Origin: a virus
Strand: one strand, 5' to 3'
DNA: 64,000 bases
Virus record (IMG/VR): IMGVR_UViG_3300034072_002211
Location: 124,001-188,000 of that record
The notes below the pieces were generated by a model that did no database searches, had not been told where the DNA came from, and was given only the letters and a program-made list of their open reading frames with translations. Positions 8,573-24,360 of this stretch are shown here, one piece after another. Made by a program: the position numbers and the translations under genes. The number at the start of each line of letters is the position of its first letter. The first letter of the stretch is position 1.

Positions 8573-8588
8573 CCTAATTGGAGGTTGT

Positions 8589-10062: not shown

Positions 10063-10069
10063 GTAGGGA

Positions 10070-10249: not shown

Positions 10250-10295
10250 GTCCTAGAATATTGCGGACTGATTCTCTCCTCCGCTAGGGAGAGGA

Positions 10296-10478: not shown

Positions 10479-10747
10479 AGACCGCTGAAGAATTAGGTCT
10501 TAACCCAGAATTTCCTTATATTGTCTGGGTTGAGATAGATGGCTACATGATGAGCGAAAAGGCTCAGGACCAGCGCGATGCCATGGCCGAATGGTTCCTC
10601 CGTTCTGACTTCGAGGAGGACGACATGGACAGCGTCTATACCAGCAAGGACGCCGCTCGCAATTATTGGAAGTCCACTGCTACGCACATGGTATTTGGTT
10701 TCAAGGATCCACAAAAGGCTGTTCAGTTCAAGCTCGCATGGGGCTAA
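10475..10747 (+). CDS. FKLTWGG-family protein
   Basis: 90 residues, ATGA-coupled. N-terminal strand YIVWVEIDGY, helix AMAEWFLRSDFEEDDMD, and end FGFKDPQKAVQFKLAWG. Confidence 0.8.
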   Translation: MKTAEELGLNPEFPYIVWVEIDGYMMSEKAQDQRDAMAEWFLRSDFEEDDMDSVYTSKDAARNYWKSTATHMVFGFKDPQKAVQFKLAWG

Positions 10748-10755
10748 GTAGAAAC

Positions 10756-10983
10756 ATGGAAACTATTGTTCGCACCCGCAAACTCACCATGGTCAACATC
10801 CAGAACGTCGAGAAATGGCTTGACGAACATCTCACTGGACCAGCAACAATCCGTGGTGCCAATTACAAGGTCTTCATCCAGCAGTATTGCGCGGAGAACG
10901 ACGGTAACAAGAAAATTCACACACTGAAAGTCAGTTTTTTCAGCGAGACCGACGCTCGCCGCTTTCTCATGGAATGGGCTTGA
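10756..10983 (+). CDS. FKLTWGG-family protein (degenerate end)
   Basis: 75 residues from ATG 10756, nine bases after the previous stop. The N-terminal strand METIVRTRKLTM and helix NVEKWLDEHLTG are typical, but the end is VSFFSETDARRFLMEWA, a degenerate block. Its last bases overlap the -35 box of the next promoter. Confidence 0.75.
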   Translation: METIVRTRKLTMVNIQNVEKWLDEHLTGPATIRGANYKVFIQQYCAENDGNKKIHTLKVSFFSETDARRFLMEWA

Positions 10984-11007
10984 CATTTCACCTCTTTCTG
11001 CTAATTC
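10980..11007 (+). promoter_or_regulatory. Promoter, TTGACA-N16-TAATTC
   Basis: -35 TTGACA 10980-10985 and -10 TAATTC 11002-11007, 16-bp spacer, upstream of the 11026 gene. The -35 overlaps the stop codon of the previous gene. Confidence 0.65.
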
Positions 11008-11025
11008 AGGGCAGAAGGAGGACAC

Positions 11026-11280
11026 ATGGCAGACCTACGCGATATTCCTGAGATCTACCCGCATGAGGTGACCCTCAAGCACAAGGGCGAAGTCTACAAG
11101 GTTAGCCTCGCCGTTGTGAAGTGGCTCGAGGCCCAGGAGATCATGAATATCGTGGACTTCCACCTCGACATGAACTTCGAGGAAGATCGGATCGCTGTGC
11201 TGTTCAAGCAGAAGAAGCACGCCAAGACCTTCAAGGCATCCAAGAAAGAGATCCGTGACCGCGCTCTCTCCGAAGCCTAA
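11026..11280 (+). CDS. FKLTWGG-family-like protein with basic tail
   Basis: 84 residues, ATG 11026 after AGAAGGAGGACAC, the strongest SD in the array. Family features are the N-terminal strand YPHEVTLKHKGEVYKV, the helix AVVKWLEAQEIMNIVDF, and AVLFKQKKHAKTFKASKK in place of the usual terminus. The C-terminal 20 residues are charged (KKEIRDRALSEA). Confidence 0.75.
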   Translation: MADLRDIPEIYPHEVTLKHKGEVYKVSLAVVKWLEAQEIMNIVDFHLDMNFEEDRIAVLFKQKKHAKTFKASKKEIRDRALSEA

Positions 11281-11494
11281 GCGGAAGGTCTTCCGTTACA
11301 AGGTAGCCATCCGGATCAAGAACCTGCAGGTTCGCGAGATGATGACCTGGCTTCATGACCAGGGCCATGTGCTCCACGAAACTGTCAAGTTCGGAGCCAA
11401 CAACGAAGTCGATATGCAGACCCGAGACATCATCGTGAAGTTCCGCAAAGCCAGAGCAGCGATGATGTTCAAGCTCGCGTGGGGTGGTCGATGA
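11255..11494 (+). CDS. FKLTWGG-family protein
   Basis: 79 residues, GTG start 11255 giving a 26-bp overlap with the previous gene. Basic N-terminus (PKPKRKVFRYKV), helix EMMTWLHDQGHVLHE, end AAMMFKLAWGGR. The next start is coupled as ATGA. Confidence 0.75.
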   Translation: MTALSPKPKRKVFRYKVAIRIKNLQVREMMTWLHDQGHVLHETVKFGANNEVDMQTRDIIVKFRKARAAMMFKLAWGGR

Positions 11495-11787
11495 CCACCC
11501 ATGTTTGCCTTTCAGCGCGTGATGAAATCTACGACGGCTATGGTATCCGCAAGGATATTCACCAGTGGCTTCGCAATCACGTGGGTCGCGCAGCTCATGA
11601 CCAGACGGATTTTATCTGGTCTAGGGCAGGCTATCGCCTCATGATTACCAACTCCCGGGCCAATCCCCAATATATCACCCCAAGCATGGTCACGGTGCGC
11701 GAGCCCAACGATCCCATATTCCTTCATTTCTTCTTTAAGAGCACGGCAATCGCAACCCTCTTCAAGCTGACGTGGGGTGGACAATGA
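11491..11787 (+). CDS. FKLTWGG-family protein
   Basis: 98 residues from ATG 11491, preceded by GTGGGGTGGTCG of the upstream gene. The helix is DIHQWLRNHVGRAAHDQTDF and the end is FFFKSTAIATLFKLTWGGQ. An upstream frame extension (MGWS) is only the read-through of the previous terminus. Confidence 0.8.
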   Translation: MTTHVCLSARDEIYDGYGIRKDIHQWLRNHVGRAAHDQTDFIWSRAGYRLMITNSRANPQYITPSMVTVREPNDPIFLHFFFKSTAIATLFKLTWGGQ

Positions 11788-12212
11788 TCGTGGATGATGG
11801 CTCCCGTGAGAAAAAGGTCCTGAGTCTGTTGACCCGTGCCGCGCGGGACAAGCTGACCACTGTGGACCTCGCCCTCCCACATCCAGAACTGGTCATCAAG
11901 AAAAAGCAGGTCCGGCGGGGCAATTCCAGCTCATGGGTCTACAAGGCCAATGAGCAGGACGATGACGTCATTGTGCTGCTGATGCCCGACATGGGTCTGT
12001 GGCTGGATGAGCGGGCCAAGCGCGCTCCGGTGTTCCACGACATCTATGGCAAGCCCGACCATCTCTATACCTATGGAATTGAGCTGCGCTGTAAGAATAC
12101 CCGTGCGCCGGGCGAAGTCGGCGGGTGGAGCAAAGAACCCACTCATGCGCGCTTCTACTTCGTGAGCAAGGATCTTGCGCTCCTTTTCAAGCTAACATGG
12201 GGTGGAGCATGA
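11784..12212 (+). CDS. FKLTWGG-family protein, long
   Basis: 142 residues from ATG 11784 after TGGGGTGGACA. The N-terminal half is an extra segment rich in charged residues (DDGSREKKVLSLLTRAARDK). The family helix is GLWLDERAKRAPVFHD, followed by FYFVSKDLALLFKLTWGGA. Confidence 0.8.
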   Translation: MIVDDGSREKKVLSLLTRAARDKLTTVDLALPHPELVIKKKQVRRGNSSSWVYKANEQDDDVIVLLMPDMGLWLDERAKRAPVFHDIYGKPDHLYTYGIELRCKNTRAPGEVGGWSKEPTHARFYFVSKDLALLFKLTWGGA

Positions 12213-12460
12213 TGCACCCTAATCGTCCCGTGATCGCCGAGGTCATCATTCCGGTTGGTGATTTTCCCTGGCATGTCCAAATGGAAAATGGCCGGCCCCG
12301 GCGTTATTATAGCGACCTCAGTGAGCCCATGATTGAGACCAAGGGGATGCCCAAGACCTATGGACTCAACAGGGAAGGAACGCACGTCGTATTCAAGTTT
12401 CACAATATCGAGGACATGCCTCGGATTATTGTGTTCAAGATGAAGTGGGGAAGAAAATGA
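12209..12460 (+). CDS. FKLTWGG-family protein (FKMKWG end)
   Basis: 83 residues; ATG 12209 or the adjacent ATG 12212, after TGGGGTGGAGC. The helix position is not obvious here. The end is FKFHNIEDMPRIIVFKMKWGRK. Confidence 0.75.
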   Translation: MMHPNRPVIAEVIIPVGDFPWHVQMENGRPRRYYSDLSEPMIETKGMPKTYGLNREGTHVVFKFHNIEDMPRIIVFKMKWGRK

Positions 12461-12711
12461 CGCCGCAACAGAAAGCCATGGGCCAGCTTCTTCAGGTCAG
12501 TCTGTTCAAGTGGGCGGATGCGGTTCAGTCCAATATCAACGAGCTCAAGCGGCTAGGGGTTGACTCCAGCCAGCTGGATCAGATCGCCCTCAATGTGGAA
12601 AAGGTCATCGACCAGACCATTGAAGGTACCAAGCCCGAAGATATCACTATGGCTGATCTGGAACGGATCAACGATCAGATTGTTCAGCTCAAAGGGCTGA
12701 TTCGTGACTAG
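12457..12711 (+). CDS. Small helical protein, not family
   Basis: 84 residues, ATG 12457 after GTGGGGAAGAAA. Mostly alpha-helical with heptad-like spacing (DQIALNVEKVIDQTIEG ... DLERINDQIVQLKGLI), probably a coiled coil. It lacks the family terminus but is translationally coupled to members on both sides. Confidence 0.75.
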   Translation: MTPQQKAMGQLLQVSLFKWADAVQSNINELKRLGVDSSQLDQIALNVEKVIDQTIEGTKPEDITMADLERINDQIVQLKGLIRD

Positions 12712-12985
12712 GGTGATGTATCTGGATGTTGAGTGGACTCGTGTCCGTCTTAACAAAAAGAACATGGACATCACATTGCGAACTGATGGCTTCCGTGAAT
12801 GGGAAGACATCAGAGTCCCCGATGAAGTCTGGGTTTGGCTCAATACTTATACTGGAATTGTCCAGAGCAATCTCATCACCGAAAGTAATTGGTGGTGGGA
12901 TCGCAAAGCTGATGACGAAGACCACATCTACTTCTTCTTCAGGGATCCAGACACCGCCCTCCAATTTAAGCTGACCTGGTCATGA
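12704..12985 (+). CDS. FKLTWGG-family protein
   Basis: 93 residues from GTG 12704 with AAGGG eight bases upstream; ATG 12716 is the alternative. Helix EVWVWLNTYTGIVQSN; end YFFFRDPDTALQFKLTWS. ATGA overlap with the next gene. Confidence 0.75.
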   Translation: MTRVMYLDVEWTRVRLNKKNMDITLRTDGFREWEDIRVPDEVWVWLNTYTGIVQSNLITESNWWWDRKADDEDHIYFFFRDPDTALQFKLTWS

Positions 12986-13221
12986 GCGAGATCACAGACG
13001 TCGTTGTTCCATTTCTCAACGTGGCTACGTTTGATGGTCGACGTCGTCCCAATGTTCTCATGAACCCTGAGATTGACACGTGGTGTCTCAACTGCAAGGG
13101 CGAGGTCAATCGGCAATATCTCTTTGGCCGGAGCAAAGACCCCACAACGTTCAAAGTGCTGTTCGGCTTCTCTAACCCAGCCGATGCCGTCATGTTCAAA
13201 TTGACGTTTGGAGGCGCGTGA
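12982..13221 (+). CDS. FKLTWGG-family protein
   Basis: 79 residues, ATGA-coupled. The helix region is replaced by IDTWCLNCKGEVNRQYLFG with a Cys-x2-Cys pair; the end is GFSNPADAVMFKLTFGGA. Confidence 0.75.
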   Translation: MSEITDVVVPFLNVATFDGRRRPNVLMNPEIDTWCLNCKGEVNRQYLFGRSKDPTTFKVLFGFSNPADAVMFKLTFGGA

Positions 13222-13236
13222 CACCATACTGGTGTT

Positions 13237-13674
13237 ATGAGAATTGCCCACACCTATGACGTCACCTTTCATGGCAAGCTAAAAGAGCTCGAGACTCCGG
13301 CTATGAAGTCCTTCTGGATCCAGCCGGATCAGGGTGATCGTTTCGAGGTGTCGGTTCCCAACCATCCCAAGATTCTCGAGCATTTTATCTGGCTGGACGA
13401 GAATGATTGTCTGCGCCACCTCAGACATATTAGTCCCACCTACACGACCAACGTCGATGAAGTGGAATCCATCCAGAACTACAATGCCATGTTGGAAGAA
13501 AATGCCTACGCCATGGGTAGCGTGGTCAAAAACTACAGCATGACCTCAGCCGGCTATAAGACCTACATTCCAGGTCTGAAGCCTGTCCCTGAGCTCACAT
13601 TTACCTGCACTTGGACCTTTTGGTCCCGCGAACATGCTGTTATGTTCAAGCTCGCTCGAGGAGGTGAATTGTGA
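13237..13674 (+). CDS. FKLTWGG-family protein, long
   Basis: 145 residues, ATG 13237 just after an 13-bp element CACCATACTGGTG (short inverted repeat). A long insert separates the N-terminal strand (YDVTFHGKLKEL) from the terminal block WTFWSREHAVMFKLARGGEL. GAGGAGG within the Gly-Gly codons serves the next gene, which overlaps as GTGA. Confidence 0.75.
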   Translation: MRIAHTYDVTFHGKLKELETPAMKSFWIQPDQGDRFEVSVPNHPKILEHFIWLDENDCLRHLRHISPTYTTNVDEVESIQNYNAMLEENAYAMGSVVKNYSMTSAGYKTYIPGLKPVPELTFTCTWTFWSREHAVMFKLARGGEL

Positions 13675-14033
13675 TTCTTGAGGAAAAGAACGGCGTCTTC
13701 ATGATTATCCCAGAAGAGGGAGAAAGCTTCTGGGCCTATGATCCCATTGACATTCACAAGGCTCTAACAAGCCGCCCCAAGATCCGCACGGTGCTCAAGG
13801 ATTGGCTTGACGTAACGGCGCCGGGTCAGTGGACTACCAGCTATCTGGAGAAGTTCCGCAAAGCCATCGTAGTGCGGGACAAGGCCACCTTTCTGCTGTT
13901 CAAGCTCGCATGGACAGGCAAGGATGAGATCCGAAGGGCTCAGGCCCAGCGCGGAGAGGCTGCGATGTTCTATGCGCCCTATGTGCCACAGAATCTCCCC
14001 CAAGTTACATGGGCTTCCAACGACGTCGTATAA
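13671..14033 (+). CDS. FKLTWGG-family protein with C-terminal extension
   Basis: 120 residues, GTG start 13671. The family block (FLLFKLAWTG, about residues 75-85) is followed by about 35 extra residues (IRRAQAQRGEAAMFYAPYVP), one of few members where the block is not terminal. Helix TVLKDWLDVTAPGQW. Confidence 0.75.
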   Translation: MILEEKNGVFMIIPEEGESFWAYDPIDIHKALTSRPKIRTVLKDWLDVTAPGQWTTSYLEKFRKAIVVRDKATFLLFKLAWTGKDEIRRAQAQRGEAAMFYAPYVPQNLPQVTWASNDVV

Positions 14034-14037
14034 CTGG

Positions 14038-14065
14038 TAGACAGGTGTCCTGTTTCCGCTTATAG
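14038..14065 (+). promoter_or_regulatory. Promoter, AACTGG-TAGACA-N16-TTATAG
   Basis: AACTGG directly precedes -35 TAGACA 14038-14043; -10 TTATAG 14060-14065; 16-bp spacer. It lies upstream of the 14073 gene and carries the same AACTGG box as the minus-strand promoters in the right half. Confidence 0.6.
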
Positions 14066-14072
14066 GGGGCCT

Positions 14073-14480
14073 ATGAGCGGATCAACCTATAAGAGCACTC
14101 TGCGTAAGCAAGAGGACCACAAAGACCCTCTACGGGCGTCTGTGGGCCATATGAGGGCATCTAAGTGGGGCAACAAAGAGACCTTCCAGTCCAACATTAT
14201 CTTCCGCAAGCCCGTTATTCGCAACCACGAAATCCAATTGAGCTGGCCTGAAGCCCACAAGCTCTTGGACGCCGCTGGTATCGAGCAACCCAAATATCTT
14301 TCCGACTATCGCGCAACGGTAGATCGTCTGGCCAGGCATCTAGAGTTCTGGTCCTATGGCAATCTGGTGCATGGATTGGACACGAATGTCTGGGGGACAA
14401 CCCTAGAACCCAAACTACAGATCTTCTTCCAGACCAAAGCTGATATGATAAAGTGGAAGCTCTCATGGTGGAACCTGTGA
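14073..14480 (+). CDS. FKLTWGG-family protein (WKLSWW end), long
   Basis: 135 residues, ATG 14073 after TAGGGGGCCT. A basic N-terminal region (MSGSTYKSTLRKQEDHKD) precedes the family core; the helix is DRLARHLEFWSYGN and the end is IFFQTKADMIKWKLSWWNL. Confidence 0.75.
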   Translation: MSGSTYKSTLRKQEDHKDPLRASVGHMRASKWGNKETFQSNIIFRKPVIRNHEIQLSWPEAHKLLDAAGIEQPKYLSDYRATVDRLARHLEFWSYGNLVHGLDTNVWGTTLEPKLQIFFQTKADMIKWKLSWWNL

Positions 14481-14728
14481 GCTACATGGGCAACCGTGAG
14501 GGCGCTAGTGTCTGCGTTGAGGATTTCCAGGAATATCAGAAGGTCGTCGACATGGATGCTGACGAATATGGTAGTCCCAGGATGATCCTACTCTACTCTG
14601 TGAAATTGTGGTTCGATGATCGAGATCTCGACCCAGAGTGGTGGCTGGACGATCTAGGAAACGTGTGGTTTGAATTTGAGAAGCGTGGCGAGGCCCTGCT
14701 TTTCGTTCTGGAGATTCTCCGCAGTTGA
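14465..14728 (+). CDS. FKLTWGG-family-like protein, acidic
   Basis: 87 residues from ATG 14465, overlapping the previous gene by 16 bp. Acidic. The end FEFEKRGEALLFVLEILRS keeps the shape of the block but not KLTW. Probably a diverged member. Confidence 0.65.
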   Translation: MVEPVSYMGNREGASVCVEDFQEYQKVVDMDADEYGSPRMILLYSVKLWFDDRDLDPEWWLDDLGNVWFEFEKRGEALLFVLEILRS

Positions 14729-14752
14729 CAGAATAGGAGACTCCAGTAGACA
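14725..14752 (+). promoter_or_regulatory. Promoter, TTGACA-N16-TAGACA
   Basis: -35 TTGACA 14725-14730, -10 TAGACA 14747-14752, 16-bp spacer, seven bases before ATG 14759. Confidence 0.6.
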
Positions 14753-14758
14753 AGGCAC

Positions 14759-15079
14759 ATGGGAGCCGTCGGAGTCTTATTTGAGCATCACTTGCTCCGT
14801 CCCTCTGGGGTGTGGGAGAGCTGCATTAATGCCAGCCTCCGTGAAGACTTTCGTGACTGGCTATATGAATATGTGGGGCATGGTCCCGACTTTCCCGTAA
14901 GAGGATGGGACGCTAACGCGGCTCATAACCAGTTGGCTGTTCAGTGGTTCTGGTATGACGATCGCTTGAGCAGCATCGACGCGCGCAAGTGGAAGAAGCA
15001 CGGATTCAAGGTCCTGTTCTTCGACCCCAGGAAAGCCGTGCTCGCAAAGCTAACCTGGGGCGGAAGAGAAGTTACTTGA
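14759..15079 (+). CDS. FKLTWGG-family protein
   Basis: 106 residues, ATG 14759 very close to the promoter, so the leader would be short and no SD is visible. Helix DFRDWLYEYVGHGPDF; end VLFFDPRKAVLAKLTWGGREVT. Its 3' end overlaps the 3' end of the convergent peptidase gene by 8 bp. Confidence 0.75.
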   Translation: MGAVGVLFEHHLLRPSGVWESCINASLREDFRDWLYEYVGHGPDFPVRGWDANAAHNQLAVQWFWYDDRLSSIDARKWKKHGFKVLFFDPRKAVLAKLTWGGREVT

Positions 15080-15515
15080 TCAGACCAGCCTGATAACGAC
15101 CGCCCTGAGGTGGCAGAGTCAGGACCTGATTGCGGTTGCTGATGCCGCTCTTGAGACCAAAGCCAATGTGAACCCAACGACGCTTTTCGTGGATTAGCTG
15201 GTCGAACTTGATGCCTGCCTTGATCAGAGCAGCGCAGACCTCGTAAGGGGTGCCAAACTGTGGGCACACGAAGTCAACTGCGAAACCAAAGCTGTGAGCA
15301 GAAGTCGTGACGCCACCAACTGCGCGATTAACCGCATCGCTGCGATATGCGGAGTTGACCTGGATTGGCAGACCACCCAGAGCGGCACGGACCTTTTCCA
15401 TCTGCTGAGCCGTATAGGTCAGGTTAGCGAGTAACTGACCGGTTGGGGTATTTGGCAGGCCAGTCGAGGTCACGGTCATCTCGGCTAGGCTGAAGTGTGG
15501 GGAAAGCTGAGTCAT
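15072..15515 (-). CDS. Peptidase M15-type endolysin (D-Ala-D-Ala/L-Ala-D-Glu family)
   Basis: 147 residues, ATG 15515 after TTAGGAGGTGTCTC. The zinc site of M15_3-type peptidases is intact: SAHSFGFAVDF gives His74 and Asp81, and RRWVHIGFG gives His116 preceded by Trp114. The segment SAYRSDAVNRAVGG (55-68) is also typical. It should cleave peptidoglycan cross-links during lysis. There is no signal peptide, so it would need a holin or other release route. It is the only minus-strand gene inside the rightward array and has its own late-type motif 22 bp upstream, fitting late expression. Confidence 0.88.
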   Translation of the reverse strand: MTQLSPHFSLAEMTVTSTGLPNTPTGQLLANLTYTAQQMEKVRAALGGLPIQVNSAYRSDAVNRAVGGVTTSAHSFGFAVDFVCPQFGTPYEVCAALIKAGIKFDQLIHEKRRWVHIGFGLKSGISNRNQVLTLPPQGGRYQAGLIK

Positions 15516-15536
15516 GAGACACCTCCTAATGTGAGA

Positions 15537-15543
15537 TATTTAT
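15537..15543 (-). promoter_or_regulatory. T4-like late promoter motif
   Basis: Minus strand reads GTCAATAAATATCTC, 22 bp before ATG 15515 of the endolysin gene. Confidence 0.55.
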
Positions 15544-15559
15544 TGACACTAAGTAGGAA

Positions 15560-15796
15560 GTGGACCAGGCACTTTTCCCCGCTGCCAACAACCCTCGCCC
15601 CTATAAGGTGCGATTGCCCAATGTTGTTCTCCCCATCCACCACTACAATGTCCGTCTCTTCCTCATTGAATTGGGCTGGGAAGAATTCACGGATTGGATG
15701 ATCTGCCCCTATACCTATACCGAAGCAGGAGAATATGAAGTGTGGTTTGCGGATATTGGCAAAGCCACATACTTCAAGCTATCGTTCACCCTATGA
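15560..15796 (+). CDS. FKLTWGG-family protein (FKLSFTL end)
   Basis: 78 residues, GTG 15560 after AGTAGGAA. N-terminal strand YNVRLFLIE, helix EEFTDWMICPYTY, end VWFADIGKATYFKLSFTL. ATGA-coupled to the next gene. Confidence 0.75.
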   Translation: MDQALFPAANNPRPYKVRLPNVVLPIHHYNVRLFLIELGWEEFTDWMICPYTYTEAGEYEVWFADIGKATYFKLSFTL

Positions 15797-16062
15797 GCGA
15801 TCTGCCCGAACCAGAAGAGCTAGAAACCCGTCAGGTCCCAGTGTGGCGTTTTAACGCAGACTGGTATCATCACGGTGTTCCTATGCCTCCTGGCGATTGG
15901 AAAGAATCGAGGGACAAGGATCTCCAAGAAGCCAGGGACATGCTGGCACATTTGGAAGAAGGCGAGGACTGGTTCTTTGTGCAGGTCTATGGTAGCGATG
16001 TTGATGTGTTCTTCATTGATCCCAGAGAAGCCATGCTGTTCAAACTAAGGCATGTCATGTGA
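15793..16062 (+). CDS. FKLTWGG-family protein (FKLRHVM end)
   Basis: 89 residues, ATG 15793. Acidic N-terminus (SDLPEPEELE); helix ARDMLAHLEEGEDWFFV; end VFFIDPREAMLFKLRHVM. Confidence 0.75.
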   Translation: MSDLPEPEELETRQVPVWRFNADWYHHGVPMPPGDWKESRDKDLQEARDMLAHLEEGEDWFFVQVYGSDVDVFFIDPREAMLFKLRHVM

Positions 16063-16463
16063 ACCAACCTCTGGAAAAGCTGAAGCAGCTAATGAGTGGG
16101 CAATACCGACCTTATGTGGGTCACCGCGATCCCAAGGATGTTACGTGGACTCCTGACGATGGCTGCTGGGTGGAACACTATTATTTCTACCGTGTGAACT
16201 TTGAAAAGGTGTTCACACCTTTTCGGAGTGCTGACGTATTTGACTTCATCAAACATGACATGCAGCAGGATGAAGCCAAGTGGGGCACCTATCGGCAGGA
16301 TTGGGGTTGCTGGGTCAATAGCTACGATGACAGAACCTCGACCCACAGCTATTATTTCAATGAGCTCGAGAAAGCTCAGGAATTTTTGAGGACCTACCCT
16401 GACAGCTATCCGGTGTTTGAGACGATGAAGTGCTCACCCTGGGTAAGGGGTCCCCAACGATGA
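16059..16463 (+). CDS. Unknown protein, probably diverged family member
   Basis: 134 residues, GTG 16059 (GTGA overlap). Aromatic and His-rich, with a possible degenerate block YYFNELEKAQEFLRTYPDS at residues 103-121 followed by a further 13 residues. Membership of the FKLTWGG family is tentative. Confidence 0.65.
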   Translation: MNQPLEKLKQLMSGQYRPYVGHRDPKDVTWTPDDGCWVEHYYFYRVNFEKVFTPFRSADVFDFIKHDMQQDEAKWGTYRQDWGCWVNSYDDRTSTHSYYFNELEKAQEFLRTYPDSYPVFETMKCSPWVRGPQR

Positions 16464-16491
16464 GATCCTAGACATCAACACTTTTGAAGAG

Positions 16492-16698
16492 ATGACCATG
16501 GAATATCCCTATTGCGTTGAGATTTCTCTGGACCATGATGGCGCAGACATCGAGGACTGGCTTCTCGAGAATGGCATGGGTCATGTGACCGACTGGAAGG
16601 CTATCCGTATGCGGCACAAGCAGGTCTGGGCCATTTACTTCAAGAATGCCAACCAGGCAGTTATGACCAAACTCCGCTGGGGCGGTCGTGAAGCCTGA
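16492..16698 (+). CDS. FKLTWGG-family protein, last of plus array
   Basis: 68 residues, ATG 16492 (or ATG 16498). N-terminal strand YCVEISLDHDG, helix DIEDWLLENGMGHVTDW, end IYFKNANQAVMTKLRWGGREA. It ends 14 bp from the convergent gene. Confidence 0.8.
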   Translation: MTMEYPYCVEISLDHDGADIEDWLLENGMGHVTDWKAIRMRHKQVWAIYFKNANQAVMTKLRWGGREA

Positions 16699-16707
16699 TT
16701 TCACGAC
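16685..16707. terminator. Bidirectional hairpin between convergent arrays
   Basis: GTCGTGAA (16685-16692) pairs perfectly with TTCACGAC (16700-16707) around a 7-base loop, between the stops at 16698 (plus) and 16713 (minus). Confidence 0.55.
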
Positions 16708-16712
16708 AGAGT

Positions 16713-17048
16713 TTATTCTTCAGGGGTGATCCGCCTAGGAAGAACCAAGAGCTCTCCACCAAAGCGTAGGTGGAACAATGCTGCGGTATGATTGTCACGA
16801 AAGAAGAATTGAAAGAACTGGCTAGTGCGCCACCACGCGACCCCGCCATTCTCTTCGTCATGCATGTCAGGCACCGTAGCCTCTAGCCAATCCCAAATGG
16901 CCCAGCAGGGCATGGGACCTCGATACTCGGGATCGATCGCAACTTCCTCTTCGTTGCGGTTCTCCATATAGGGGAGAGTGATCTCAACCCATCCCGGAGT
17001 GTGAAGGCCATTCCTCGGCCCCATGGCCTGTGAGCCAATATGTCTCAC
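16713..17048 (-). CDS. FKLTWGG-family protein with C-terminal extension
   Basis: 111 residues from GTG 17048 (GTGA overlap with the upstream stop). Helix AIWDWLEATVPDMHDEENGG; block FFFRDNHTAALFHLRFGG, then about 14 extra residues (LVLPRRITPEE). Last gene of the leftward array. Confidence 0.75.
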   Translation of the reverse strand: MRHIGSQAMGPRNGLHTPGWVEITLPYMENRNEEEVAIDPEYRGPMPCWAIWDWLEATVPDMHDEENGGVAWWRTSQFFQFFFRDNHTAALFHLRFGGELLVLPRRITPEE

Positions 17049-17347
17049 TGACCGCCCCACAACGTCTTGAAATATACCGCGTGCTTGGCTTCCTTGAAGA
17101 AGAGGCCGATCCATCGCTTACCAGGAATCACACCAGCATCCGGGCCACCCCACTCCACATACCAACCCCAAGTCTCGTTCTTGGGATCCAGCTGATCGCC
17201 TTCGGTCAAAAACCTCTCATCCATGGCCGGGCCCGCAACTTGCTCTAGAAGGGCCAGCGCGGGGCCTGTAAGCTTGATCTGCATGCCCCAGTCAACGACA
17301 TGCTCAGCATCAATGACAATGCGAGTGAAGCCCTCAGGGACTTTCAT
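17045..17347 (-). CDS. FKLTWGG-family protein
   Basis: 100 residues, ATG 17347 (ATGA). End FFKEAKHAVYFKTLWGGQ; the preceding region GWYVEWGGPDAG resembles the strand pair before the block. Confidence 0.78.
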   Translation of the reverse strand: MKVPEGFTRIVIDAEHVVDWGMQIKLTGPALALLEQVAGPAMDERFLTEGDQLDPKNETWGWYVEWGGPDAGVIPGKRWIGLFFKEAKHAVYFKTLWGGQ

Positions 17348-17562
17348 AGGGCACCCCAGGCAAGCTTGAACAATGTGGCCTTCTGAGGGTCCTTGAACCG
17401 ATAGATCATGAAGCCCATCTGGAAGTCCACAGCATAATCCCAAGTGTCGCTGCCAATTCTAGCAGGCTGTATATTCGCCCAGGTCTTCTTGATCCATTCT
17501 TCACAGAAGTGAACTCTGGTGATCCAGTCTTTGCCGTCAGGCACCCGCACGTCATAGGTCAT
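17344..17562 (-). CDS. FKLTWGG-family protein
   Basis: 72 residues, ATG 17562. Helix HFCEEWIKKTWANIQPAR; end YRFKDPQKATLFKLAWGAL. The GGTGCC codons replace GGTGG before the next ATG. Confidence 0.8.
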   Translation of the reverse strand: MTYDVRVPDGKDWITRVHFCEEWIKKTWANIQPARIGSDTWDYAVDFQMGFMIYRFKDPQKATLFKLAWGAL

Positions 17563-17936
17563 AGGGCACCCCAAGCAAGCTTGAAGAGCATTGCTTGATC
17601 TTTGTCCAAAAAGCCCACGTGCCATCCCGGCTCCATGGAGTTGTTGGCATAGCGAAACTCAAACTGGTAAGCGCGCTCTAGACCAGCATTCACAAGCCAC
17701 TCATGAACTTCGTCCTTGAGACGAAAGAAGCCGTCATGGCCCTCGCTGTGACAGGGACGACTCACAATGTCTTGAGGTTGGCCCGGACCGCCCGGACGAG
17801 GACAAACTACGATCCTACACCGATCGGACTCGTAGAACTCCCTGACAGTGTTTGCCCGTTTGTCGTTGATTAGAACCCAATGGAGACTGCGACCCGAACG
17901 GTCGAGAAGTCTAAAGGGGATAACGGGTTCTTCCAT
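17559..17936 (-). CDS. FKLTWGG-family protein, long
   Basis: 125 residues, ATG 17936. The N-terminal 55 residues are additional (RLLDRSGRSLHWVLIND). Helix EVHEWLVNAGLERAYQFEF; end VGFLDKDQAMLFKLAWGAL. It begins about 20 bp after the previous stop rather than overlapping it. Confidence 0.78.
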   Translation of the reverse strand: MEEPVIPFRLLDRSGRSLHWVLINDKRANTVREFYESDRCRIVVCPRPGGPGQPQDIVSRPCHSEGHDGFFRLKDEVHEWLVNAGLERAYQFEFRYANNSMEPGWHVGFLDKDQAMLFKLAWGAL

Positions 17937-17956
17937 GCCACCCGCTTTAGCACCTG

Positions 17957-18220
17957 TTAGCCAAAGGTCAACTTGAACCGCGTGGCCTCATCCGAATCCT
18001 GGAATGTTATGAGAACAGTCTGTCCAAAGCGCGGTCCCATATCAAAGGGTTCATCAACCCAATTGGGGAATACTTCAAAGGCGTCTGTGACGTGGCAAAC
18101 GCTATGACCCTTGAGGACATGGTTGGCAAGCCAATCAAGTCGATCCTTCCACCAGAATGCGAGCTCATCAGCATCGCCTTTTGGGATGGTCTGACTTACC
18201 AAGTAGGGATAGAACTTCAT
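17957..18220 (-). CDS. FKLTWGG-family protein
   Basis: 87 residues, ATG 18220 (ATGA). Helix DRLDWLANHVLKGHSVCHV; end ITFQDSDEATRFKLTFG. Confidence 0.8.
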   Translation of the reverse strand: MKFYPYLVSQTIPKGDADELAFWWKDRLDWLANHVLKGHSVCHVTDAFEVFPNWVDEPFDMGPRFGQTVLITFQDSDEATRFKLTFG

Positions 18221-18447
18221 GTCCACCTCAGTGCGAACAGGATAGCATCCAGTCGCTTCTCAAAATACCAGAGAGTCATATTGTTATGGCCGAGGTAGAG
18301 GTTGCTGAAATGTCCGCGCAGACATTCATCTACCCAGCGCATCTGTTCTTCCTGATCCTCATACCCTTTGGCTTTGACTGTTCGCCAGCCATCGCCCGGA
18401 TCATGATGAAATCTGGTATAATACTTCTCTCTACCTAGCAACCACAT
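18217..18447 (-). CDS. FKLTWGG-family protein (FALRWT end)
   Basis: 76 residues, ATG 18447, overlapping the upstream gene by 13 bp. Helix QMRWVDECLRGHFSNLY; end WYFEKRLDAILFALRWT. Confidence 0.75.
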   Translation of the reverse strand: MWLLGREKYYTRFHHDPGDGWRTVKAKGYEDQEEQMRWVDECLRGHFSNLYLGHNNMTLWYFEKRLDAILFALRWT

Positions 18448-18725
18448 CCATGCACCAGACGGAACATCCTAGCCATCTTCTTGTCAGAAAAGTAGAAGCT
18501 CACTAGGGAATTATCTCGATCTGCCTGCAGGTCATCATTGTGCGTTAGGACGCAATAATCACTGTGCCAGAGCCAATCTACCAGATCCACGATGTCATCG
18601 AAGACGTCTGGGCGCTTGGTGCTCACACGGGCTTGGACTACGTGGGGATGGCCGGAGAGCCAGATATCACGGAGATAGTGACCCTCACTCGCACCCACGT
18701 GATAGCAATACCACTTCAAGCCCAT
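18435..18725 (-). CDS. FKLTWGG-family protein (degenerate end)
   Basis: 96 residues, ATG 18725. Helix DIVDLVDWLWHSDYCVLTH; block FYFSDKKMARMFRLVHGCGC, with Trp lost and two cysteines at the terminus. Confidence 0.72.
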   Translation of the reverse strand: MGLKWYCYHVGASEGHYLRDIWLSGHPHVVQARVSTKRPDVFDDIVDLVDWLWHSDYCVLTHNDDLQADRDNSLVSFYFSDKKMARMFRLVHGCGC

Positions 18726-18964
18726 GTTAGCTTGAATAGCACCGCCTGATCAGGATTCCTAAAATAGAATGTCATTGTGGAAGCAGATAGTGGCAGATCA
18801 TGATGCCAATCACCCGTGGGGCCATTGGTAAAGAAACGAGCCTTCTCACCAATGTTGTCCTCAAGCCACTTACGGATCTCTGCCCTGGGACCTAAGCGGT
18901 TGACCAAGACGTTCATGGCCTTGCCCACAGGTAACTCCACAGGAGTCCAACATTCCCAGCTCAC
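18716..18964 (-). CDS. FKLTWGG-family protein
   Basis: 82 residues from GTG 18964 (GTGA). Helix EIRKWLEDNIGEKARFFTN, among the most typical; end FYFRNPDQAVLFKLTWA. Confidence 0.8.
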   Translation of the reverse strand: MSWECWTPVELPVGKAMNVLVNRLGPRAEIRKWLEDNIGEKARFFTNGPTGDWHHDLPLSASTMTFYFRNPDQAVLFKLTWA

Positions 18965-19248
18965 AGAAACGTCAGCTTGAACATTGCTGCCTCTGCGTTG
19001 TCCTTGATCCTCAACTCCCACATCTGATTCAACTGAGGCACAAGATCATAACCGCTTGGTAGCATCTGGTGAGCCATGTCGGTCAAGAAGTAATGCGGAG
19101 CCATCCTGATACCAGGGCTCTTGGGATCCTGCCATCCAGAGACAACCTGCCGGTCCGTGGGAGGCTGTGACCCATGGGAATACCAGAGCCAGTTATGGCG
19201 AGCTGGACTCATATCCAGCTTGTGAGGAATCTTGAAAACTACACCCAT
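18961..19248 (-). CDS. FKLTWGG-family protein
   Basis: 95 residues, ATG 19248 within the last codons of the upstream gene. The middle is diverged (HYFLTDMAHQMLPSGYDL); end LRIKDNAEAAMFKLTFL. Confidence 0.75.
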   Translation of the reverse strand: MGVVFKIPHKLDMSPARHNWLWYSHGSQPPTDRQVVSGWQDPKSPGIRMAPHYFLTDMAHQMLPSGYDLVPQLNQMWELRIKDNAEAAMFKLTFL

Positions 19249-19532
19249 CTAAGCTTGAATAGCATGGCTTCCTTGGGGTCCGCAAATACGAACTTGAGCC
19301 CAGTAAAGCCAGACACTACCGCGCCGCCTTGCTCGATAGCACTGAAGCTGATGTCGATGACATGAACATCATGACTCACATTGGCCATAAGCCACTGATC
19401 AGCCTCGTCGGTGGTCGTCCAAGGATAGTAATGAGGGAACTGCTCATGACGAGGACGCAAGGCGCCATTGCCCGGCCCCTCGATCTCCACGATCGTTGCT
19501 GGCTTCCCAGATATGGTTGTGATGATTCTCAT
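19239..19532 (-). CDS. FKLTWGG-family protein
   Basis: 97 residues, ATG 19532 (ATGA). N-terminal strand MRIITTISGKP, helix EADQWLMANVSHDVHVIDI, end FVFADPKEAMLFKLRWV. Confidence 0.8.
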   Translation of the reverse strand: MRIITTISGKPATIVEIEGPGNGALRPRHEQFPHYYPWTTTDEADQWLMANVSHDVHVIDISFSAIEQGGAVVSGFTGLKFVFADPKEAMLFKLRWV

Positions 19533-19798
19533 GAGAAGGTCATCTTGAACAAGAGTGCGTCGCCGTGGTTGGTCTCTGGGAAATGGAAGAACGCTTCGTT
19601 ATCCTCAGAGTAGCCAAAGTTAGTTGCGAGGAATCTCTGCCCTAGCCACTCCTTGATCTCCGGTATGGGTTCCCAGACACCTCGACCACTATTAACATTG
19701 TCCGTGTAGGCCATAGAGGTCCAAAAGTTCAGGCAGATGACCGTTCCTGGGCCAAAGCGAATCTTCATCCAATCACTGGCCCGCTCATTGGCTTCCAT
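19529..19798 (-). CDS. FKLTWGG-family protein
   Basis: 89 residues, ATG 19798. Helix EIKEWLGQRFLATNFGY; end FHFPETNHGDALLFKMTFS. Confidence 0.78.
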   Translation of the reverse strand: MEANERASDWMKIRFGPGTVICLNFWTSMAYTDNVNSGRGVWEPIPEIKEWLGQRFLATNFGYSEDNEAFFHFPETNHGDALLFKMTFS

Positions 19799-20033
19799 TG
19801 GACGCCTCTAGCTTGAAACGAATGGCATCTATGCGACGCCTGAACTTGAAGAGAACATAGGAGAATGTCTCACTGATCACCACGACATAATCCTCACGAT
19901 CCATGCCATCGGCATGGAACCAAAAACGGATGAAGTCCTTGATGCGATACTTGGGGAACAGAGGAATGGTCTCTTCCTCCGCGGCATCCCAAAGGGACAT
20001 ATAGACCGAAAAGCGGCAGTCTCCGTAGCTCAA
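19785..20033 (-). CDS. FKLTWGG-family protein, TTG start
   Basis: 82 residues from TTG 20033, which overlaps the upstream stop as TTGA and follows TGGGGTGGTCG. No ATG or GTG occurs at the junction. Helix IKDFIRFWFHADGMDRED; end FKFRRRIDAIRFKLEASNG with the Trp-Gly lost. Confidence 0.7.
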   Translation of the reverse strand: MSYGDCRFSVYMSLWDAAEEETIPLFPKYRIKDFIRFWFHADGMDREDYVVVISETFSYVLFKFRRRIDAIRFKLEASNGSQ

Positions 20034-20326
20034 CGACCACCCCAAGTGAGCTTGAACAGTAGGGCATCGCAGGGCTTTTTGAAACCATAGCAAACCCTGA
20101 GAACCGGGCTGATATAGCTCTTCATATGATCACGCGACTCCAACCACTCACCAACCTCAGAACGAGAATGGCTGGGCTTCCAATCATCCCAGATCATGTG
20201 GTGATAGCCATTGGCATTCATGTCAGCTGTGATCTCATGATAACGGCGCTCCACCATGCGAGCTAGATCGTCCTCATCTTCCTTGATCGTCGCCTGATTA
20301 GGAATCCAAAAGACTTGCTGCTTCAT
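20030..20326 (-). CDS. FKLTWGG-family protein
   Basis: 98 residues, ATG 20326 after TGGGGTGGTCA. Helix EVGEWLESRDHMKSYIS; end YGFKKPCDALLFKLTWGGR. Confidence 0.8.
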   Translation of the reverse strand: MKQQVFWIPNQATIKEDEDDLARMVERRYHEITADMNANGYHHMIWDDWKPSHSRSEVGEWLESRDHMKSYISPVLRVCYGFKKPCDALLFKLTWGGR

Positions 20327-20598
20327 TGACCACCCCAAGTGAGCTTGAAGATCAGAGCATAGACCCTATCGTCTTCATGAAAGCAAACATAACGACCAGG
20401 AAACATGCGCTCCGCCCTACGGCTATAGGACTGAATACACCACTGGCGGCGCTCCAGGGACGACCTCTCAGAACCACCTGGCATGTGAGTTAGCCCAAGT
20501 GCTTCTCCCCAATCCTTCCATGCTGCTAGGGCTGTGACAAAGGCATTGACGGCAGGCCATTCAGGTGGACTTGGTTCTTTGACGTAGACGCGGATCAT
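20323..20598 (-). CDS. FKLTWGG-family protein
   Basis: 91 residues, ATG 20598 after TGGGGTGGGAA. The helix is VTALAAWKDWGEALGL; the end is VCFHEDDRVYALIFKLTWGGQ. Confidence 0.8.
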   Translation of the reverse strand: MIRVYVKEPSPPEWPAVNAFVTALAAWKDWGEALGLTHMPGGSERSSLERRQWCIQSYSRRAERMFPGRYVCFHEDDRVYALIFKLTWGGQ

Positions 20599-20780
20599 TT
20601 CCCACCCCAAGTGAGTTTGAACAGGAGAGCGATCTTGGGATCATGGAAGTAGAAGTTCCTACCCTCCCGCCCATTCACATTGGCGGCCCATGACGTCCAC
20701 TCCTCGCCTATAGCATAACAATCCAACCAGTCATAGACTTCGTTGGGAACATCCAAGTGAGTGGTCCTTACTCTGATCAT
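20595..20780 (-). CDS. FKLTWGG-family protein, minimal
   Basis: 61 residues, one of the shortest: ATG 20780, strand MIRVRTTHLDV, helix EVYDWLDCYAIGEEWTSW, block FYFHDPKIALLFKLTWGGK. It shows the minimal domain clearly. Confidence 0.82.
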   Translation of the reverse strand: MIRVRTTHLDVPNEVYDWLDCYAIGEEWTSWAANVNGREGRNFYFHDPKIALLFKLTWGGK

Positions 20781-21010
20781 CCCCACACCAACTTGAACAA
20801 CACAGCTTCGCCTGGATCCATGAAGATGAACTTCAGGGCAATCTCATCATCTATGCGAATCCGCTCCACCCTATAATACCAAGAGCAGTTCTCATAACAC
20901 CAATACTCTAGGTGGTCATAGAGGTGAGGACCAAGCCACACATTGTTACCAACCTGTTCCTTCTCCCCAATCTCCATGAGACGGCGACGATTGAGGACAA
21001 CCTCTTTCAT
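20777..21010 (-). CDS. FKLTWGG-family protein
   Basis: 77 residues, ATG 21010 after TGGGGTGGGGA. The region LYDHLEYWCYENCSWYYRV takes the helix position; end FIFMDPGEAVLFKLVWG. Confidence 0.8.
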   Translation of the reverse strand: MKEVVLNRRRLMEIGEKEQVGNNVWLGPHLYDHLEYWCYENCSWYYRVERIRIDDEIALKFIFMDPGEAVLFKLVWG

Positions 21011-21234
21011 TCCCCACCCCACGTCAGTTTGAACAGTAGAGCGGTGTCACGATCCTTGTCCTCAAACACGAACGCAATCCCATCGTCCTTGACATCATAG
21101 TCCCAAGCGTCATCACAGCGTTCCTGAATCCACTCAATGACTTCGTAGATAACAACCTCACTGGTCCCCCAGGGAGATTCGTGGTCCTCGACTTCCATGA
21201 AGATCTTGTGGAGGGGAACGGTGACGCAGATCAT
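21007..21234 (-). CDS. FKLTWGG-family protein
   Basis: 75 residues, ATG 21234. N-terminal strand MICVTVPLHKIFM, helix VIEWIQERCDDAWDYDV, end FVFEDKDRDTALLFKLTWGGE. Confidence 0.8.
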   Translation of the reverse strand: MICVTVPLHKIFMEVEDHESPWGTSEVVIYEVIEWIQERCDDAWDYDVKDDGIAFVFEDKDRDTALLFKLTWGGE

Positions 21235-21539
21235 TCCCCACCCCACCTGAGCTTGCAGAGCACCGCACACTTGGCTTCCTTGAACTGGAACACCATTCCC
21301 TCACGAGTTGGAGGGAAACCAAAACGAGCCTGGTTCCTTTGTTCCCAGCAGGAGTTCCAAGAAGGACAGAACTCAAGCAGCCAAGTCGAGAACTTGTCCG
21401 TGGGCACTAGACCATGAACGAATTTACCATCAGCCGTCTTACCCTGAAACGTCTCGATGAGACCATTGGCACTCACAGTCCGGCGAGCACCAAATCGCTC
21501 CGCTGGATCACGGTCAAAGGGAATGAAGACATAGAACAT
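21231..21539 (-). CDS. FKLTWGG-family protein
   Basis: 102 residues, ATG 21539. Helix FSTWLLEFCPSWNSCWEQRN; end FQFKEAKCAVLCKLRWGGE. A 43-bp gap with two CTATAG copies separates it from the upstream gene, so transcription or regulation may restart here. Confidence 0.78.
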   Translation of the reverse strand: MFYVFIPFDRDPAERFGARRTVSANGLIETFQGKTADGKFVHGLVPTDKFSTWLLEFCPSWNSCWEQRNQARFGFPPTREGMVFQFKEAKCAVLCKLRWGGE

Positions 21540-21582
21540 ATGAACTCTATAGAGAGCACCAGTTCAAGATGTCACTATAGAG

Positions 21583-21870
21583 TTAGGTCCAGGTCAGCGC
21601 AAACCGCCGAGCACCCTTGAGACCCCGTAGATGAACTTCAACAGGCGTGATCACACCATCGCTGGAATTCTGCTCAACATAGAAATCACCGGAGAGATTC
21701 TCCTTGAGCCAGTGGAAAGTCTCCGCGAACTCACTCTCAAGCCAGATGTCCTTCTTCACAGGAAAGGGATGACCAGGATCCCAATCTCCCGGAACCAAGA
21801 ACACCCAAGAGTAGTTGAACCCCGGCAAGATCCATGGATAGTCACCTGGGTTGAAACGAGCACTCTTCAT
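21583..21870 (-). CDS. FKLTWGG-family protein (FALTWT end)
   Basis: 95 residues, ATG 21870 (ATGA). Helix TFHWLKENLSGDFYVEQ; end VHLRGLKGARRFALTWT. Confidence 0.78.
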   Translation of the reverse strand: MKSARFNPGDYPWILPGFNYSWVFLVPGDWDPGHPFPVKKDIWLESEFAETFHWLKENLSGDFYVEQNSSDGVITPVEVHLRGLKGARRFALTWT

Positions 21871-22298
21871 CCCCATGTGAGCTTGACAAGCACCAACTGA
21901 TCACCCGGAACCCAAACTGTCATGGGCTCCTTGTTGTCCCGGATGAACTTGATCTCATCCACTATAGGGAAGTCACGAGCCTGACACCAATCCAGAAACT
22001 CCCCAACACGATCTGAGGGAATATCCAACTTGATCTCCTCATATCCCCGCTCAACAAGATCCTCTATAGTGACGATGGTCTCATTGTCAGACTCATCCCA
22101 CTTCAATAGAGTGGCGTTGAAACGAAGCTTGAACTGAAGAGCATACCGCTTATCCCTGAACTCCACATTGTAGATCATGTGACCAGCTTCATCCCGCCGG
22201 TTACAATCCCGGTAGTCCCCATACCCTTCATAGAGCACAAAGGACTCCACCTCCCAAAGATCATTGTGCTCACTCGAGACATCAAAGACGTAAGTCAC
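21867..22298 (-). CDS. FKLTWGG-family protein, two-domain
   Basis: 143 residues from GTG 22298 (GTGA). A first family block YNVEFRDKRYALQFKLRFN lies near residue 55, and a second unit follows with helix VGEFLDWCQARDFPIVDEI and end VPGDQLVLVKLTWG. It is a clear tandem fusion of two units in one protein. Confidence 0.8.
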   Translation of the reverse strand: MTYVFDVSSEHNDLWEVESFVLYEGYGDYRDCNRRDEAGHMIYNVEFRDKRYALQFKLRFNATLLKWDESDNETIVTIEDLVERGYEEIKLDIPSDRVGEFLDWCQARDFPIVDEIKFIRDNKEPMTVWVPGDQLVLVKLTWG

Positions 22299-22546
22299 AA
22301 TCCACCCCACGTGAGCTTGAACAATGTAGCCTTCCGAACATCATCAAACTTGAACGTCACATTGCTGGGTCCCCTGGTAGCACGCAATCCCCAAGCATCC
22401 CATCCATTACCAACTATGTTCAGATTGCTGTCGGTGGCATCCACTATCCCACCCACATGGCTATAGAGCCAAGACACCATGTCCCTGGGCAAGAACCCAT
22501 TCTCCAACTCTACGGAGATCATAACATAAGGCGTGGGCGAACTCAT
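22295..22546 (-). CDS. FKLTWGG-family protein
   Basis: 83 residues, ATG 22546. Strand YVMISVELENG, helix DMVSWLYSHVGGIVD, end FKFDDVRKATLFKLTWGGL. Confidence 0.8.
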   Translation of the reverse strand: MSSPTPYVMISVELENGFLPRDMVSWLYSHVGGIVDATDSNLNIVGNGWDAWGLRATRGPSNVTFKFDDVRKATLFKLTWGGL

Positions 22547-22568
22547 TAGACCCTCTATAGAGAGAAAC

Positions 22569-22967
22569 CTATCCCCACGTCAACTTGAACAGGAGAGCTA
22601 TATCCCGCTCCGATACGTTGAACCAATAATGACCCATGAGCGGTCCATAGGTGTAATCAGGCTCTCTATAGAGATGAGAATCAGGACCCTCACGAACATC
22701 CCCATAACGGTAAGAAATCGCATACGTCCCAGAGATGATCTTGAACGGATCCTTCCCACCATGCCGGTATCCATCATACCCAACAGCATCCTGGATAGCC
22801 ATACCCTGCTCAGATAACCTATAGTGAAGACCCTGAGCTTCTAACCAATCCATAGGCTCCCGGCGATGAGGATACGCACCGTCACGGCGGCGAACCCATA
22901 CCCGCTCATTGGTCAATGCTAGATTGACCCTGAGCATATCCCCTATAGTGGTGAGATCACTAGACAT
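22569..22967 (-). CDS. FKLTWGG-family protein, first of minus array
   Basis: 132 residues from ATG 22967; ATG 22991 is the longer choice. Helix PMDWLEAQGLHYRLSEQ, long insert, end WFNVSERDIALLFKLTWG. It is the promoter-proximal gene of the leftward array. No SD was recognised, and CTATAG copies sit just upstream (22978, 23004; 26 bp apart). Confidence 0.75.
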   Translation of the reverse strand: MSSDLTTIGDMLRVNLALTNERVWVRRRDGAYPHRREPMDWLEAQGLHYRLSEQGMAIQDAVGYDGYRHGGKDPFKIISGTYAISYRYGDVREGPDSHLYREPDYTYGPLMGHYWFNVSERDIALLFKLTWG

Positions 22968-23009
22968 ACAGAACTCACTATAGAGCCACACTCTGACTTG
23001 TCACTATAG

Positions 23010-23770
23010 AGCAGATCTTTCCCCTAACCCAACACTCTAAAGCAAACCCTCTTAACCCTATCTCTTTACCCTCACCAGAACTACGCAAGAACGCATTTTA
23101 CCATAATTCAGGGCATTAACACACCATTTTCTACCATTTTCTGCGTGCTAAGGGCTCCAAAAGTCCAGCTTTTCCAACGGTTTCCGCTAAGTGGCTGGAA
23201 AAGAATGGAGAAAATAATTCTTCCACCACAAGGACAGATTTAGACGGTTCTGGGCCCATTCTGGCTCCTACTTAGTCCTACCCTGTATAGTGGATCTGGG
23301 TGGTTAATCATTCTCTATAGAGGCTATAGTGGTCACTCGAGAGTCTGCTATAGGGGAGACTCTGAGTAACTGGGGAGTAGAGACTATAGGGCTCAGAGTA
23401 GCCACTACTATAGAGTTCACTATACAGAGTCACACTGATATAGATGCTATAGACATTCAGACGAGTCTTTTCAATCTCCCCATGAGTGCTGTTCTCTATA
23501 GAACCTCTATAGTGGTTATCACATGGGTTCATGCTATAGAGACAATTGCCTATTGTGCTCTGAGCATTAGTATCTGAGTGAGGGCGGCCTGGGGACTTCT
23601 CTGTCAGAGTCGTGCTATTGGGATGCTCAGTCCTCGCGAAGCGCGCAAGCGCGCTATCATTTGTGGAGGAGGCGATTGCGTTCCTCGTGGTGTTTTCTAT
23701 GCTTTTGTGGAATGTTGGCGCAGCGGGCGCTTTCAGCGCAACCATGTTGTGGAGGACGGTTGCGGAGGTT
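23010..23770. other. Gene-free block with CTATAG copies
   Basis: No convincing gene. The left part (23010-23300) is pyrimidine/AT-rich with C/T tracts and lacks CTATAG. The middle (23310-23580) holds ten CTATAG copies. The right part has short GCGC-rich inverted sequences (GCGAAGCGCGCAAGCGCGCT at about 23636-23657). Long frames on either strand here consist of repeated Tyr-Ser or Ile-Glu caused by the repeats. The block could hold an origin or a regulatory region for the leftward array. Confidence 0.5.
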
Positions 23771-23772
23771 TC

Positions 23773-23800
23773 TCTATAGAGTTGAAGGCTTGTTGGTCAA
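23773..23800 (-). promoter_or_regulatory. Promoter, TTGACC-N16-TATAGA
   Basis: Minus strand: -35 TTGACC (23800-23795), 16-bp spacer, -10 TATAGA (23778-23773), the -10 being inside CTCTATAGAG. It points toward the leftward FKLTWGG array but lies about 800 bp from its first gene. Confidence 0.45.
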
Positions 23801-23890
23801 TTCTCTATAGAGGCTTCTACTGTAGAGCGCAATGGGAGAGCGCGTGAGCGGAAGTTTTCCTATGCTTTATTTATCACGTTATCTGGGTAG

Positions 23891-24016
23891 TTTTTGGCAC
23901 GTTGGTGAAAAGATTTGCGGCGCGTTTGGAGGCGCGTTGGCTCAACTTTGCGGAGGTTTTTGGCGCGTCTTGGTAACTTTCGCTCAGCTTTAGGCGCGCG
24001 GCGCTTTTGGTGAAAT
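23891..24016. repeat. Iteron-like TTTTTGGCGCGT repeats
   Basis: Five irregularly spaced copies of a T-rich plus GGCRCG element: TTTTTGGCACGTTGG (23891), GGCGCGTTTGG, GGCGCGTTGG, TTTTTGGCGCGTCTTGG (about 23956) and TTTAGGCGCGCGGCGCTTTTGG (about 23990). A TTTATTTATCACG AT-rich stretch lies next to them at 23871. The arrangement recalls iterons beside an AT-rich unwinding element. Confidence 0.4.
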
Positions 24017-24081
24017 CGCGGTTCCGAGAGCTTTAGGCATGACCGAGCCAAGTCCTGGGCAGATTTTCGAGAGTTCTGGGC

Positions 24082-24360
24082 TCAATGGCTGCGGCGCTTG
24101 AGCTCAGCCTCTATAGTGGAAATTGCCTGGTTTCCATATTGCTCAGGGTTAGCGAGCAGCCAGGTCAAAGTGGATTGGAAGGCTTCTGTGCTTGGAGGAC
24201 AAGTATCGTAGAACTTGCGGTGACCGTTCTCCACACCCCAACACCAGCACAATACTGATTGGCGGATCAGCTTTTCCTTCACTATAGCGTCCAGCTCTGC
24301 TGTGGTAAGTTCTGGAGTGCTTTGGTCAAAGTTGAATTCAAGCTGACGTGGGTCCCTCAT
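24082..24360 (-). CDS. Unknown 92-residue protein
   Basis: ATG 24360 after AGGAGATAGCCC. The N-terminus MRDPRQLEFNFDQ contains a QLEFNF segment resembling sliding-clamp-binding peptides (consensus QLxLF-like); this is only a similarity. The remainder is helical (TTAELDAIVKEKLIRQ; STIEAELKRR) with a Cys-Trp-Cys-Trp motif. It lies alone between two terminator-like hairpins and the repeat block. Confidence 0.65.
   Translation of the reverse strand: MRDPRQLEFNFDQSTPELTTAELDAIVKEKLIRQSVLCWCWGVENGHRKFYDTCPPSTEAFQSTLTWLLANPEQYGNQAISTIEAELKRRSH

Follow-up and report, generated by a model that had tools for sequence, protein, structure and literature searches.

The window analysed here, a stretch of 64,000 nucleotides, corresponds to positions 124001-188000 of a viral record totalling 277,444 bp. 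The family-B DNA polymerase of this record shares 58% identity with its counterpart in Sinorhizobium phage Phosso and 52% with the one in Agrobacterium phage Atu_ph07, which, together with the T4-type proteins also encoded in the record, points to a T4-like jumbo phage; its host is probably an alphaproteobacterium. Since the long relatives span 435-490 kb, the 277-kb record may be incomplete. The comparison set consisted of five genomes: the record itself and four IMG/VR contigs, retrieved by querying with the proteins that flank the cluster described below, namely L134 (record G001; 435,856 bp), L370 (record G004; 462,455 bp), L140 (119,335 bp) and L142 (182,590 bp). The window presented no tRNA genes, and no Rfam match to a structured RNA was obtained. 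Elsewhere in the record, 18 tRNA genes are gathered in 9 kb at its end (L013, 268-277 kb), and two tRNA genes with a CUA anticodon (amber-suppressor type) are located at about 28.7 kb (L003:8717-8792, minus strand) and 253.7 kb (L012:5634-5712, minus strand). Among the 343 predicted genes that encode at least 80 aa, only 24 end in the TAG codon; with these tRNAs, suppression or recoding of TAG is possible. In addition, one protein of the record matches the anti-CBASS protein Acb1 (PF23474, 5.5e-14).

Two convergent arrays of paralogues are present in the window, one on the plus strand (8537-16700) and the other on the minus strand (16700-22991), with members also in L003 and L004. The array proteins have about 100 aa and end in FKLTW(GG), as part of a C-terminal A-x-LFKLTWGG; those tested belong to no Pfam or PHROG family, and the arrays are found in all four relatives. 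The leftward array begins with a gene at 22569-22991, followed by a second at 22295-22546 and a third at 21867-22310 (all on the minus strand), the last of which encodes 147 aa and is conserved in all the relatives with about 60-67% identity. Directly upstream of the array, positions 22992-24081 form a gene-free block; only two stretches of the record devoid of predicted genes are larger. On its other side there is a gene of 92 aa (24082-24360, minus strand) with syntenic homologues in the relatives (28-36% identity in the three aligned) and without a Pfam or PHROG family. The four relatives share the same gene order, with tail-fibre-type genes, a gene of about 100 aa, the gene-free block and then the FKLTW array, and in each of the five genomes the array is immediately preceded by the block.

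The hexamer CTATAG is present 24 times between positions 21547 and 24287, compared with 31 times in the window and 42 times in the whole record. The 18 copies in the remaining 275 kb are what chance predicts, and a first-order Markov model gives about 20 for the complete record. At the density found outside, 0.18 copies would be expected in 2.74 kb, which corresponds to a 134-fold excess and, with correction for the placement of the window, to a Poisson P of about 10^-40. Among all 6-mers of the genome CTATAG is the most locally clustered (score 20.3), and the runners-up overlap it. The first-pass annotation had described such a dense cluster, proposed to count the motif over the whole genome and named uniqueness of the cluster as support for its reading; all 24 copies were recovered at that place, and the count revealed a single cluster, which rules out that the genome is generally rich in CTATAG or that the sites are spread genome-wide over short intergenic stretches.

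The left edge of the cluster is formed by two sites between two array genes (21547-21580). The third array gene carries two sites (21962 and 22064), the second one (22461), with another just upstream of it (22555), and the first carries four (22666, 22819, 22943 and 22978). Twelve sites lie in the gene-free block, where the densest sub-cluster groups nine of them within 225 bp (23315-23539), and two more in the 92-aa gene. The pair at 22978 and 23004, 26 bp apart, flanks the start of the first array gene at 22991, as had been pointed out before. Neither the rightward array nor the scattered members of the FKLTW family are accompanied by a CTATAG cluster, which indicates that the motif does not serve this family as a general switch.

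It had also been proposed that the cluster was kept even where it constrains coding, and our analysis agrees. The six genes around the block hold nine copies, whereas 1.2 are expected from synonymous shuffling with their own codons; none of 5000 shuffles reached nine, and the codon usage of the genome predicts 0.6. These excess copies argue for selection acting on the DNA. Regarding the reading frames, five genic copies use frame 1 and the other four frame 2, with none in the frame in which TAG would be a stop. The same DNA word thus encodes differing amino acids, which speaks for a cause at the DNA level.

Variants of CTATAG with one mismatch are hardly enriched, so that the core is strict. 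When both orientations of the flanks were pooled, position -2 was C and position +7 was G in 38 of 48 cases in the cluster, compared with 6 of 18 and 5 of 18, respectively, for the copies outside it. The strict core and these flanks define the true site as the 10-bp palindrome CWCTATAGWG, and the palindromic flanks are confined to the clusters. A profile of 50 sites from three genomes (the window, L134 and L370), taken in the direction in which the array genes are coded, showed C(-2) in 42, W(-1) in 43, W(+6) in 43 and G(+7) in 36. It also showed T at -6 in 32 of the 50 (P about 2e-8 against base composition), while the symmetric A at +11 was present in just 20. Through this bias the sites acquire a common direction, mostly that of array transcription. 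It should be noted that in the window itself helical phasing is weak and the spacing of the sites irregular.

At the syntenic locus, L370 presents 18 CTATAG in 1.35 kb (of 102 in its record) and L134 eight in 2.5 kb (of 97); among the matches listed, these are the densest CTATAG runs of their records. A second small group, four copies in 525 bp beside tail genes, was seen in L134 (6939-7463). In the alignment of the window with L370, just 4 of 15-17 sites occupy the same column, which means that the cluster persists although its single sites are replaced. L140 and L142 have few or no CTATAG at the locus and carry other repeated sites instead, so the type of repeat varies by lineage and the locus is fixed. 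L134 contains five CYATAG sites 11-12 bp apart and L140 four CTATRG sites 11 bp apart, that is, about one helical turn. In both L140 and L142 it is CTAG (CCCTAGA-type) sites that are enriched, some of them 11 bp apart; tandem repeats of this type with a period of about 11 bp are found in L142 (9166-9197) and L140 (8590-8628), just before the conserved AT-rich element described below. In the 42-kb stretches inspected of Atu_ph07 and Phosso there was no FKLTW array or CTATAG cluster. Other viral contigs rich in CTATAG mostly proved to be AT-rich chance cases or to hold different repeats. One of them, L043, an unrelated phage contig with CACTATAGTGACCATG tandem repeats in a gene-free stretch (5478-5664), was discarded as a relative, the gene array being missing.

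Another aspect to mention is the conservation of elements beside the sites. An AT-rich element, CTAAATCTGT-N13-GAATTATTTT, is located at 23211-23243 (minus strand), and its consensus CTARATCTGT-N13-GAATTATTTT occurs exactly once per record in four of the five genomes, with a partial version, GGAGAATTATTTTCTCC, at its place in L370. The closest repeated sites lie some 65-110 bp upstream of it. In a wider search, among the matches listed, only chance matches appeared beyond three relatives, and the element was not found in the whole records of Atu_ph07 or Phosso. A second conserved element, AAAATGGTAGAAAAT (23126-23140, minus strand), is also present exactly in L142, and a stretch of about 40 bp common to the window and L370 (23639-23680, minus strand) ends in a perfect inverted repeat, GCGCGCTTGCGCGC. 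Furthermore, in duplex stability the block ranks with the 3-4 weakest stretches of 200-300 bp in the record, and a local minimum of stability is found there also in L134 and L142.

In summary, here and in two relatives there is one CTATAG cluster per genome, at a conserved location beside conserved elements, in which the sites turn over and the DNA is under selection. The earlier suggestion of a binding array for a regulator, a polymerase or a partitioning or replication protein holds in its general form, for a regulator or a replication/partition array, given that the cluster is single, is conserved in two relatives at largely non-homologous positions and exceeds the synonymous expectation; neither a T7-type polymerase nor ParB, as specific partners, was found. 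The reading that we prefer, tentatively and at somewhat short of even chances, is an operator-like array for one protein controlling the adjacent gene array. A single sequence-specific DNA-binding protein, probably a dimer, would recognise the palindrome CWCTATAGWG, and many bound copies could build an extended nucleoprotein complex covering the gene-free block and the genes on either side, which would silence or time the transcription of the leftward array of accessory genes of about 100 aa. The strict core, the symmetric flanks, the turnover at conserved density and the one-turn spacing in the relatives would fit a dimer that binds cooperatively. The position of the block directly upstream of the array and the predominantly common orientation of the sites make control of array transcription the most likely function. 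Against it count the lack of such sites at the rightward array of the family, the weak helical phasing in the window and the extension of the sites over the 92-aa gene on the upstream side, for which an operator of the array has no need. Pfam scans yielded no obvious DNA-binding candidate common to the relatives, in a record that is possibly incomplete. A LuxR-type protein with a GerE helix-turn-helix is encoded at 265961-266119 of the record (minus strand; L012:17931-18311); it was rejected as a partner, being absent from the relatives searched, a set that included the cluster-bearing G001 and did not include G004 (L370).

The main rival, possible though doubtful in our estimation, is a replication origin, in which the sites would be iterons for an initiator beside an AT-rich unwinding element and an inverted repeat. 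The unique AT-rich element and the low duplex stability agree with an origin about equally well as with an operator array, and the restriction to one locus per genome, the single exact copy of the element in each of four genomes, the duplex minimum shared with L134 and L142, the one-turn spacing of the sites in the relatives and the inverted repeat conserved with L370 all go in the same direction. However, no initiator gene was recognised nearby, the sites span up to 2.7 kb including genes, which is wider than usual iteron sets, and strand skew, followed at fourfold sites, has no clear change point there (z was 2.2 at 148 kb, with a scan maximum of 3.3 over 124-144 kb). Moreover, T4-like replication usually starts in other ways, by R-loops and recombination. 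An improbable alternative is a recognition region for packaging (pac-type), with palindromic hexamers flanking a cut site as in phage P1. The hexameric palindromes do stand on either side of conserved central elements, at one locus per genome adjoining structural genes; nevertheless, no terminase gene was recognised beside the cluster, the sites are more numerous and cover a larger span than in P1, and headful packaging, which requires no strict site, is the rule in T4-like phages. We consider slightly less probable still a centromere or anchoring array for a segregation protein: the palindromic sites 11-12 bp apart in the relatives resemble the layout of centromere iterons, but nothing pointed to a plasmid-like phase, and ParB (PF02195), for which the controls were positive, was not found in the possibly incomplete record. 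A ParB centromere was rejected on this ground.

The first-pass annotation had related some copies to the core of T7-type promoters and one to the -10 of a TTGACC-N16-TATAGA promoter. The latter match exists, on the minus strand near 23800, and there are a few other -35/-10-like pairs, such as GTGACA-N16-TATAGT; the core ACTCACTATAG is indeed present at 22973, but as the sole exact copy in the genome. It appears very unlikely that a T7-type RNA polymerase uses the sites as promoters or that a phage sigma factor recognises them as -10 elements. Single-subunit RNA polymerase (PF00940) was detected neither in the own record nor in five relatives, whereas the phage T7 control was positive, and the upstream promoter half (-17 to -8) is not conserved in the flank profile of the 50 sites, so the proposal of a T7-type polymerase and its promoters did not hold. 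With regard to the sigma factor, five sigma-70-like sites were found in the cluster region against 3.1 +/- 1.7 in shuffles, which is no significant enrichment, and the chance frequency of CTATAG elsewhere shows that it is not a general promoter element. The least probable of the readings, with hardly any chance left to it, places the effect at the protein level: the sites would be Tyr-Ser codons of a repetitive protein encoded by an ORF of 145 aa in the block (23308-23745, minus strand), which holds nine sites. Eight of these nine share one frame, and no more than 18 of 2000 shuffles gave an ORF of this length. However, the ORF scores poorly for codon use and is absent from L370 and L134, and in recognised genes the CTATAG copies are found in both open frames. 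The ORF is probably not a gene, and the comparison with L370 largely refutes this explanation. A coding cause in general, either this ORF or TAG read as Gln, was rejected for not being conserved among the relatives.

A broader view, which we regard as unlikely, is that the locus acts as a self-recognition hub. Repeats rewritten in each lineage, together with their cognate protein, would make origin firing, control of the array or packaging specific for the own genome during co-infection. One core element per genome, with CWCTATAGWG in three genomes and CTATGG and CCCTAGA-type sites in two, would be in keeping with this unlikely proposal. To our knowledge, replication origins and regulatory centres have for the most part not been mapped in T4-like jumbo phages. 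DNA with CWCTATAGWG offers a concrete bait, and this region a concrete place, to search for the protein and the process that organise these genomes.

A literature search for CTATAG returned no phage system, and in a word search of two articles that deal with rhizobial and agrobacterial T4-like jumbo phages such an element was not mentioned (PMC6102473, PMC11242549). With iteron origins, such as those of lambda O or plasmid Rep proteins, the locus shares sites about a helical turn apart (in the relatives), an AT-rich element and its restriction to one locus per genome; it differs in the lack of a recognised initiator, in the irregular spacing in the window and in the entry of the sites into neighbouring genes. 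The pac region of P1 consists of seven TGATCA hexamers within about 160 bp, beside the terminase gene. There too, palindromic hexamers flank a central stretch and lie partly in coding DNA, whereas here up to 24 sites extend over 2.7 kb and no terminase gene was recognised alongside. The plasmid centromere parC of R1 is made of 11-bp repeats bound by ParR, a direct array comparable to the sites spaced by about 11 bp in the relatives, but the present case concerns a T4-like phage in which no partition genes were recognised. The stoperators of cluster A mycobacteriophages (L5, Bxb1) are asymmetric sites of 13-14 bp, bound by a monomer and present in 20-30 copies genome-wide in temperate phages (PMC6550527). 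Since CWCTATAGWG is palindromic and confined to one locus of 1.4-2.7 kb, and the T4-like jumbo phages concerned have no repressor that is known, we do not claim that it belongs to this class. Even so, stoperators offer the nearest layout: many copies of one short site, oriented with transcription and placed in and between genes, whose sequence drifts between relatives (PMC6550527).
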